Assembly (NCBI GenBank): GCA_028278085.1
Contig: JANQFB010000419.1
Span: 1-35,190, forward strand
From: Chitinophagales bacterium
GTDB taxonomy: Bacteria > Bacteroidota > Bacteroidia > Chitinophagales > JANQFB01
Direction of reading: 5' to 3'
DNA: 35,190 nt
Shown: positions 25,290 to 27,508 of the stretch, in pieces
How positions within the stretch are numbered: the stretch's first letter is position 1
Layout: the number at the start of each line of letters is the position of its first letter
Notes under the pieces: generated by a model
Databases searched by the model: none
What the model was told of the DNA's origin: nothing
What the model saw: only the letters and a program-made list of their open reading frames with translations
Position numbers and translations under genes: made by a program

Positions 25290-26423
25290 CTACTTCCGAT
25301 AAGTGATCCGATAGATCATATCCGCATGATCATCCGATAACAACACCGAACCATCCGGCATTTGCAGCAAGGCCACCGGCCGGCCCCAGGCATTGTTGCC
25401 TTCCAGCCAGCCCTCGATAAAGGGTTCGTAACTGAGAGCCTTATTACCATTCAGTTTAACTTGCATCACCCGGTAGCCGATAGGCTTACTGCGGTTCCAG
25501 GATCCGTGCTCAGCGATCAGCAATTGGTTCCGGTATGCTTCCGGAAACATATCGCCGGTGTAGAAGATCAATCCCAACGCCGCCACATGTGGGCCTAATT
25601 TTTGAGCCGGTGGGACGAATTCTTTACAATCCCGTTTCTTCCCAAAATCCGGGTCGGCGAAGTCGCCGCCATGGCAATATGGATAACCGAAATGGAGGCC
25701 TGTTGTCGGAGCGCGGTTCAGTTCGTCGGGAGGCATATCATCGCCCAGGTTATCACCGCCATTATCCGTGAACCACATCTCTGCTGTTTCCGGATGCCAG
25801 GTAAAGCCGACCGAATTCCTGACTCCACTGGCGAAAATTTCCAAATCACTGCCGTCTTTGTTCATCCGCATGATCGTGGCATAAACGGATCGTTCGCTTT
25901 CACAAATATTGCATGGCGCTCCTACGGGCACATACAACTTCCCATCTGGTCCGAAGGCGATATATTTCCACCCGTGGTGGCGGTCGGTCGGGAAGTCGTC
26001 GCGGATCACCACCGGCGCCGGCGGGTTTTTCAGATGGTTTTCGATCTGATCGAAACGGATCACCCGGCTGATCTCCGCTACATACAGCGATCCGTCTTTG
26101 AACGCCACCCCATTCGGCATCCGCAATCCTTTAGCGATAATATGTACCTGATCAGCTTTAAAATCGCCATCCTCATCTTCAATGGCATAAACTTTTCCTT
26201 CTCCCCGGGTCGCTACAAATAACGTTCCTTTATCCCCCAGCACCATCGACCGCGCATTGGGCACATCACCTGCATAAACGTGGATCTCAAACCCCTCCGG
26301 TAACCGGAGCGATCCCAGATCAGGATCCCCGCCGGCAATAAAGGGCGTGCAAAAAGGGATGCCAAATAATACAACGAGGAAGGGAGATAGCTTTAAGGGA
26401 TTTTTGAGCGGATTCGGTATCAT
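25290..26423 (-). CDS. Exported sorbosone-dehydrogenase-like propeller oxidoreductase
   Basis: This 377-residue protein has a hydrophobic signal segment (about 12-30). The rest is a six-bladed quinoprotein-type propeller: LRLPEGFEIHVYAGDVPNAR, ADQVHIIAKGLRMPNGVAF, HHGWKYIAFGPDGKLYVPVG, PCNIC, VRNSVGFTWHPETAEMWFTDNG and IAEHGSWNRSKPIGYRV. It matches the PQQ-dependent sorbosone/glucose dehydrogenase superfamily, in which the conserved His, Arg and the Asp of the NGGD stretch (WFTDNGGDNLGDD) are expected near PQQ and calcium. It would oxidise a sugar or alcohol in the periplasm; the substrate cannot be assigned. No PQQ synthesis genes are in the window. Confidence 0.88.
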   Translation of the reverse strand: MIPNPLKNPLKLSPFLVVLFGIPFCTPFIAGGDPDLGSLRLPEGFEIHVYAGDVPNARSMVLGDKGTLFVATRGEGKVYAIEDEDGDFKADQVHIIAKGLRMPNGVAFKDGSLYVAEISRVIRFDQIENHLKNPPAPVVIRDDFPTDRHHGWKYIAFGPDGKLYVPVGAPCNICESERSVYATIMRMNKDGSDLEIFASGVRNSVGFTWHPETAEMWFTDNGGDNLGDDMPPDELNRAPTTGLHFGYPYCHGGDFADPDFGKKRDCKEFVPPAQKLGPHVAALGLIFYTGDMFPEAYRNQLLIAEHGSWNRSKPIGYRVMQVKLNGNKALSYEPFIEGWLEGNNAWGRPVALLQMPDGSVLLSDDHADMIYRITYRK

Positions 26424-26492
26424 TGTATGAAGGATTGAGCGGTTAGCATCTTGGAAATATTACAGTTAAAGTTAAGCAGAAAAATCATCCGA

Positions 26493-26571
26493 AGGTCGGT
26501 GGGGACACCGACCTCGGAGTGAGATTTTTCTCCCCCATTCAGAGGTCGGTGTCCCCACCGACCATGGGGGA
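26493..26571. repeat. REPIN: two inverted REP-like palindromes next to the RAYT gene
   Basis: The first palindrome is GGTCGGTG-GGGA-CACCGACC (26494-26513; 9-bp stem counting the flanking A and T). The second, at 26544-26563, is its exact reverse complement with loop TCCC, so the pair is inverted across a 30-base spacer. The second is clamped further by TCCCCCAT (26531-26538) with ATGGGGGA (26564-26571). It ends 2 bases past the RAYT stop codon. Confidence 0.85.
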
Positions 26572-26573
26572 TT

Positions 26574-27137
26574 TTAAAACTCCTCCAAATAATGTGTCAA
26601 AAACCCGAATTCATCTTTTTCCAATTCATAATAACTGGCAGAAGACCAATAATAGTCTTCGGGTGTATCAGAAAGGTTCCATCTTCCAGCCATGGGATTG
26701 TTATGAATGTAATTGATTGTTTGCTCTGCCTTTTTCCTGGAATCTATTAATACGGCAAGTGCATCTCTTTGCCAAACCCGGTGTGTCCTGTCTTTTTCCT
26801 CGACCCGATAGTGCTTCAAAAGATGTGGAAAATAGTCTTTCAAATCCTGGATCAGCACATGGGCAGTGAATTTATGGAAGCTGGCATGTGGCGCTTCTTT
26901 CCCGTTCATGGCTTCGAGCCTCCATACAAGATGAATGTGATTCGGCATGATAACAAATGCATAAACGGTTATTTTTTGGGTCTTAACCAGGTGCTTGAGG
27001 GAATCCACTATAAATTGTTTGTATTTATCCGGGGTCAGTAGCATTTGCCAGTTGATAATGGTACTGGTCCAAAAATATACCCGATGTAGATACATTTTTG
27101 ATTTCCGGTCCGGTGTAAAAATGTCCGTTTCCTTCAT
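26574..27137 (-). CDS. REP-associated tyrosine transposase (RAYT), Y1/HUH type
   Basis: This 187-residue protein is a single-strand DNA endonuclease of the IS200/IS605-related Y1 superfamily. The metal-binding HUH motif is H67-I-H69 in VIMPNHIHLVW. The likely nucleophile is Y143 in INYIHNNPMAGRW, and the tail PEDYYWSSASYYE is characteristic of RAYTs. The domain is complete, without frameshift. There is no accessory TnpB and there are no classic IS ends; instead hairpins lie just 3' (26493-26571) and 94 bases 5' (27229-27252), as expected for a gene that mobilises REP elements rather than itself. Members are usually single-copy and vertically kept. It is alone on its strand. Confidence 0.9.
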   Translation of the reverse strand: MKETDIFTPDRKSKMYLHRVYFWTSTIINWQMLLTPDKYKQFIVDSLKHLVKTQKITVYAFVIMPNHIHLVWRLEAMNGKEAPHASFHKFTAHVLIQDLKDYFPHLLKHYRVEEKDRTHRVWQRDALAVLIDSRKKAEQTINYIHNNPMAGRWNLSDTPEDYYWSSASYYELEKDEFGFLTHYLEEF

Positions 27138-27201
27138 GATGTGGATGTTCGCGCAATGGGGGTATTGGAGTTGGTAAAATAAGGATAATTATGGTTTGTT
27201 T

Positions 27202-27234
27202 CGTTGCTTGTCCGTTGCTGGTCCGTTGCTGGTC
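27202..27234. repeat. Three tandem 11-base repeats running into a REP palindrome
   Basis: CGTTGCTTGTC, CGTTGCTGGTC and CGTTGCTGGTC lie head to tail; the first copy differs by one base. The GGTC of the third copy is the start of the palindrome at 27229-27252, so the tandem unit may have been copied from the hairpin arm. Confidence 0.75.
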
Positions 27235-27252
27235 TGTGGGGACACAGACCAG
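27229..27252. repeat. REP-like palindrome upstream of the RAYT gene
   Basis: A perfect 10-bp stem (CTGGTCTGTG with CACAGACCAG) closes a GGGA loop. Compared with the 26.5-kb copies, the stem differs at one pair (G-C to T-A) changed on both sides, while the loop is unchanged. Confidence 0.8.
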
Positions 27253-27310
27253 GAAGGATGATGGTGCAGTGAAATGAACTAAATCGGCTAATGATAAGTT
27301 AAGGATACAT

Positions 27311-27508
27311 ATGTCCAAATTCGACTTTTTCATTTCCTGGGGGCAGATCATTGCGGGGATCATTGTCTTATTGGTCTTCGGCTTTGTGCTGGATTGGTGG
27401 GCCGCCGGGGTGATTTTGGCGGTTGTTTTGGTCTTTCACGGTCTCGGGGAATTGAACCAGAGTCCATCAAAGGAAAAGGATTCGAAAGAGACTAAAGAGG
27501 ATCGGTAA
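27311..27508 (+). CDS. Small membrane protein of unknown function
   Basis: This 65-residue protein has two predicted membrane helices (about 10-27 and 30-44; WGQIIAGIIVLLVFGFVLDW, then AAGVILAVVLVFHGL) and a charged cytoplasmic-type tail (SPSKEKDSKETKEDR). No family is recognised. The clean hydrophobic and charged partition supports a real gene despite its size. It is convergent with the coiled-coil gene at 27681 across a word array. Confidence 0.65.
   Translation: MSKFDFFISWGQIIAGIIVLLVFGFVLDWWAAGVILAVVLVFHGLGELNQSPSKEKDSKETKEDR

Follow-up and report, generated by a model that had tools for sequence, protein, structure and literature searches.

We identified a locus in the window, the 35,190-nt stretch of Chitinophagales bacterium contig JANQFB010000419.1 analyzed here, that is very probably a REPtron of REP-associated tyrosine transposase (RAYT) subclass 2.6 (Bertels group 5), with hairpins of a type that carries a conserved 5′ foot. 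Subclass 2.6 is the Bacteroidota branch of domesticated IS200-like Y1 HuH transposases, and the window locus is an ordinary, low-copy example of this published RAYT group. The features of the locus are as follows:

26493–26514, minus strand: hairpin 1, A GGTCGGTG GGGA CACCGACC T, with a 9-bp stem, GGGA on the plus strand and TCCC on the minus strand; outer member of the REPIN-like inverted pair that it forms with hairpin 2; DNA fold z = −5.6 (plus) and −5.1 (minus)
26516–26519, minus strand: CTCC, foot of hairpin 1 on its TCCC strand, which agrees with the YCC found in the nearest relatives
26538–26541, plus strand: foot position of hairpin 2, TTCA, which does not fit YCC, GCC or TTA
26544–26563, plus strand: hairpin 2, GGTCGGTG TCCC CACCGACC, with an 8-bp stem and TCCC on the plus strand, inverted relative to hairpin 1 and directly 3′ of the RAYT stop codon; DNA fold z = −2.7 (plus) and −3.2 (minus)
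26574–27137, minus strand: RAYT gene encoding 187 aa, subclass 2.6 / group 5
27229–27252, minus strand: hairpin 3, CT GGTCTGTG GGGA CACAGACC AG, with a 10-bp stem including a compensated pair, GGGA on the plus strand and TCCC on the minus strand, upstream of the RAYT start; DNA fold z = −6.7 (plus) and −5.3 (minus)
27253–27256, minus strand: foot position of hairpin 3, CTTC, one base off CTCC

An initial annotation of the sequence had described three palindromes around an intact RAYT, and our analysis bears out this architecture, with an uninterrupted reading frame between hairpins 2 and 3 and three perfect hairpins that have stem GGTCGGTG twice and GGTCTGTG once and share the GGGA/TCCC loop in all three copies. 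The pattern GGTCNGTGNNNNCACNGACC matches three times in the window and not at all in 100 dinucleotide shuffles. Nowhere else in the 35 kb does a perfect stem of 8 bp or longer enclose a 4-nt loop; in shuffles, such stems of any sequence occur at a mean of 0.66 and a maximum of 4. As single-stranded DNA, each hairpin folds better than its own shuffles on both strands (z −2.7 to −6.7), and DNA folding joins hairpins 1 and 2 into one long inverted structure, in agreement with the REPIN-like pair proposed at 26.5 kb. The proposed compensated stem change is likewise present, with a G-C pair in GGTCGGTG replaced by T-A in GGTCTGTG at the fourth pair from the loop and the partner base changed too. 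The foot of hairpin 1 may also pair, as TCCGA/TCGGA lengthens the stem. No Rfam family matched in the window. Abutting the left arm of hairpin 3, an 11-bp unit (CGTTGCTGGTC) is repeated three times in tandem at 27202–27234, possibly through slippage seeded by the hairpin.

The encoded protein carries the HuH motif NHIH (residues 66–69), W122-Q123, Y143 within YIHNNP and C-terminal S165 S166, with N66, H67, H69, W122, Y143, N147 and S165 invariant in a 42-row alignment; Tyr143 is the putative catalytic residue. The NCBIfam equivalog model NF047646 (REP_Tyr_transpos), which matches all 10 A1 members, recognizes the protein with E = 1e-18 and 67.7 bits, under the curated cut-off of 80, and the match to PF01797 is weak. 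An AlphaFold model built from an alignment with 42 relatives (pLDDT 93.7) has as its best match in the Protein Data Bank E. coli TnpA-REP bound to a REP hairpin (PDB 4er8; E = 9e-8, 19% identity in the structural alignment), ahead of the ISDra2 and IS608 transposases, and 4er8 is also found by sequence profile (E = 6e-4). The predicted structure is thus a TnpA-REP-related Y1 HuH transposase fold with one tyrosine. Named relatives of the protein are nearly all from Bacteroidota, and genes in the window carry type IX sorting domains. A viral sequence collection yielded a single distant relative with 29% identity, giving no sign of phage carriage.

Across about 140 relatives, the RAYT gene is repeatedly enclosed by hairpins. 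In two sets of loci (61, and 69 from named genomes), hairpins occur on both sides of the gene at 88 of 130 loci with enough flank (44/61 in the first set and 44/69 in the second), and at about one-fifth of RAYT loci (11/61 and 12/69) neither side has a detected hairpin. Because the search accepted only perfectly paired stems, the evidence lies in the excess over controls: shuffles gave 0.8 hairpins per 122 flanks, stretches about 700–1000 nt away gave 7 per 121 and positions inside genes gave 0 per 61. This excess backs the earlier proposal that hairpin shape is under selection. In 35 of 47 pairs the two hairpins are inverted: upstream of the gene the pyrimidine-rich loop strand runs in gene direction, and downstream its complement does. 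Window hairpins 2 and 3 are inverted around the RAYT in the same way. Two loci (L031 and L032, from genomes G011 and G133) have RAYT flanks in which two hairpin types with stems GTTGCCTGTG and CGTTGTTTGTG alternate and are repeated several times, the gene-adjacent copies having GCC feet.

Read 5′ to 3′ along the pyrimidine-loop strand, the family hairpin consists of a foot, ten stem bases, a loop of 3–6 nt and the complementary arm. The stem core is G(G/T)T(T/C)(N)GTG or GTTGGTC, and all stem positions but the third from the loop vary in the first set, each together with its partner, a pairing that detection itself imposes. The foot, 10 nt from the loop, is mostly CC, in the form GCC or TCC/CCC/ACC: of the flanking hairpins in the two sets, 63/105 and 70/109 have CC at the 5′ positions −12 and −11, compared with 12 and 7 that have it at the mirrored 3′ positions. 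When 63 dispersed copies were oriented by loop composition alone, 33 had the CC foot and none had it on the mirror side (p = 7e-13). One well-supported clade has a TTA or CTA foot in place of CC. The GT[AG]G 5′ foot of canonical REPs, correctly reported as missing from the window, occurs in only 1/105 and 1/109 hairpins of relatives; since its lack is published for subclass 2.6, this rules out canonical REPs and not RAYT membership.

Foot and stem follow the protein tree. Foot class (GCC or TTA) requires 2 changes on a tree of 70 proteins (shuffled mean 8.4, minimum 5), GCC/YCC/TA requires 14 changes on a tree of 138 proteins (27 when shuffled, minimum 22), and the inner stem requires 22 changes, where shuffles never fell under 35. 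The hairpins of the family persist despite change in stem sequence, and both stem and foot shift as the protein does. These change counts show joint descent of the hairpin and protein lineages; they do not identify contact residues. Protein positions that differ between foot classes (residues 13, 14, 84, 132 and 136, and Q123, which is K in most TTA members) mirror phylogeny and are not put forward as determinants.

The initial annotation had emphasized a constant GGGA loop and the lack of a common flanking tetranucleotide, and had suggested from these that recognition rests on the loop in a distinct mode. Each observation stands for the window and fails for the family: the loop is identical in the three window copies and the sequences at the foot positions differ (CTCC, TTCA and CTTC), whereas among relatives loop sequence and length vary (TCCC, TCTT, TCTC, TTAT, TTTTT, GCCT, TCT and others) and a foot (GCC, YCC or TTA) is conserved. 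A protein that recognizes a fixed GGGA loop and needs no foot is accordingly unlikely. Such recognition would fit the TCYY/RRGA loops of all three window copies and most copies in the same genome, the contact that group 3 RAYTs make with a loop base (PMC8266576), and the first base of the loop, which tracks the protein tree with 20 changes versus 28. It is at odds with the wide variation in loop sequence and length, seen even between the two hairpins of one gene, which share the same loop in 18/47 pairs and the same inner stem in 37/47, with a loop length that does not follow the protein tree, and with conservation of the foot among relatives as well as among dispersed copies. The loop may still contribute to recognition, as its first base also follows the tree.

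A hairpin family with a conserved foot leaves the feet of the window to be accounted for. The nearest relatives (Chryseotalea L100, Pedobacter cryophilus L131, Sphingobacteriales L164 and Mucilaginibacter L101) join GGTCTGTG stems and TCYY loops to a TCC, CCC or ACC foot. One of the three window feet fits YCC (CTCC) and two do not (TTCA and CTTC), and the TTCA of hairpin 2 is, judging from sequence, probably a degenerate foot. The missing tetranucleotide is best explained by drift within a small population, not by lack of a foot in the family; the foot is invisible from this one locus because the window copies are few and two of their three feet have drifted. A tag-plus-stem pattern specific to these nearest relatives, and too specific to inform, matched once in 396 genomes of the phylum.

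Pattern searches with the exact core across the 6.1 Mb, 590-contig genome revealed that the core is rare yet present beyond the window locus, on contigs C461, C588 and C236. The palindromes are therefore not confined to the copies initially noted, and cognate hairpins are dispersed in the host genome, although in a small population of three copies at the window locus and roughly ten elsewhere, many of them degenerate. On C461, a degenerate cluster (GGACGGTG-TCCC, GGATGGTG-TCCT, GGGCGGTG-TCCC and GTACGGTG-TCTT) lies in the gap between two genes identified by eye as asparagine-synthase-like; C588 has one copy, GGTCAGTG-TCCT, and C236 has a group of hairpins with a TCGA loop. These variants show that the stem varies further within the genome and that the loop is TCYY and not strictly TCCC. 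Of the other copies with an orientable loop, 5/6 have the CC foot, four of these coming from one local cluster. One REPIN-like pair lies at 26493–26563, and no second pair of this sequence was seen in the 590-contig assembly. This small and largely degenerate population suggests an old system that is barely mobile or decaying.

Several neighboring observations concern the same genome. The C461 cluster (locus L010, about 1460–1700) comprises several diverged hairpins with GGACGGTG or GGATGGTG stems in alternating orientation. The C236 hairpins (locus L001, about 1335–1545) are unlike the other copies in this genome, combining GGTCTGTG stems with a self-complementary TCGA loop that makes the whole 20-mer a perfect palindrome. 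No second close copy of the RAYT was found in the genome. Other Y1 proteins are encoded on C239 and C28, with fragments on C143 and C144, and none of these genes has the hairpins nearby. The further Y1/RAYT-like genes on C28 and C144 lie at contig ends, which suggests repeats that broke the assembly.

We compared relatives with and without a RAYT across 299 genomes of the order, in which a homolog occurs in 61 (E ≤ 1e-25) and the hairpin pattern GGTYBGTGNNNNCACVRACC in 67, with 410 copies of the pattern versus 6 of its reverse. The pattern is present in 32/61 RAYT genomes versus 35/238 others (Fisher p = 4e-9), an association that is not independent of phylogeny. Within mixed genera the excess is only suggestive, with 3.5 copies per genome in RAYT carriers versus 0.75 (permutation p of about 0.07). 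One genome (G221, locus L037) contains 118 copies of the pattern and has RAYT surroundings with TATA/TACA loops and one stem of up to 19 bp; this population looks recently expanded and would make a better experimental system than the window locus.

REPs in general can serve as transcription terminators or mRNA 3′ stabilizers, and hairpins 1 and 2 do sit in the gap after the RAYT stop codon, so the hairpins might be elements of that kind that flank the gene by chance. We consider this very unlikely for the window, as no terminator-like site was found in 26300–27400 and the same hairpin also lies upstream of the RAYT, and as inverted placement on both sides of homologs recurs across many families with foot and stem that track the protein tree. 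The least probable reading is an IS200/IS605-type insertion sequence that moves as a unit with the hairpins as its two ends, as the Y1 HuH fold, the structural likeness to the ISDra2 and IS608 transposases and the hairpins at both ends would allow, for IS200/IS605 elements are without terminal inverted repeats (PMC2817692), the gene is single-copy in the genome, and the protein scores as a REP-associated transposase, only weakly as PF01797 and with TnpA-REP rather than an insertion sequence transposase as its best fold match.

Assignment to a subclass 2.6 REPtron agrees with published descriptions. A 2010 study already reported RAYT genes flanked by inverted REPs, as well as complementary mutations in REP stems (PMC2817692), and in 2018 the Bacteroidetes subclass 2.6 (group 5) was reported to be flanked by 'atypical' hairpins without GT[AG]G (PMC6006769). 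The window locus matches that subclass in its NHIH, WQ and YIHNNP motifs (NH[LIV]H, WQ and YIH[QN]NP in Table 1 of PMC6006769), protein length, C-terminal SS, Bacteroidetes host, flanking hairpins without GT[AG]G and copies elsewhere in the genome. With the group 3 REPtrons of Stenotrophomonas and Marinomonas (PMC8266576, PMC2817692) it shares a gene flanked by inverted REPs, a short perfect stem (8 bp in S. maltophilia) with compensated changes, a small loop and, putatively, foot plus loop as determinants; those systems differ in their GTAG/GTGG foot and in the protein motifs DH[LF]H and YI[VI]ANP. E. coli TnpA-REP (group 2), the best fold match, has the same HuH, W and Tyr arrangement but only 19% identity, and a bulge and a GTAG foot set the E. 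coli REP apart. Hairpins 1 and 2 resemble Pseudomonas REPINs (PMC3116915) in forming two inverted hairpins with a short spacer, and differ in that this genome showed no further copies of the pair dispersed as a unit.

By analogy with the RAYTs of E. coli, Stenotrophomonas and Marinomonas (PMC8266576), the window RAYT would bind one strand of the extruded hairpin, the TCCC strand and not the GGGA strand, and would read stem, loop bases and foot together. It may then cleave beside the hairpin with Tyr143, which could lead to spread or rearrangement of the small repeats during replication.

SELEX experiments published in 2021 demonstrated that group 3 RAYTs recognize loop bases (PMC8266576), and as the lack of GT[AG]G was also already published in 2018, neither constitutes a new mode. 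The main text of the subclass 2.6 study gives no hairpin consensus and calls the hairpins 'atypical' by manual inspection (PMC6006769); relative to that main text, the stem core, pyrimidine loop strand and foot are defined here, and its Table S1 may list part of them. A foot consensus with GCC/YCC/TTA switching does not appear in PMC2817692, the main text of PMC6006769 or PMC8266576. Within the literature covered, the only REPs whose recognition has been elucidated are GTAG-footed hairpins from Gammaproteobacteria. The consensus of foot, stem core, loop strand and inverted placement makes the Bacteroidota repeats searchable, and foot classes that track the protein tree offer a direct test of substrate choice by a tamed single-strand transposase. 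We give even weight for and against the broader proposal that the 5′ foot recognized by Bacteroidota RAYTs is exchangeable (GCC, YCC or TTA) and takes the place of GTAG, with foot, stem and protein having switched together several times. If true, these lineages would supply naturally matched protein–hairpin pairs for deciphering the foot code and, through it, the choice of cleavage site.
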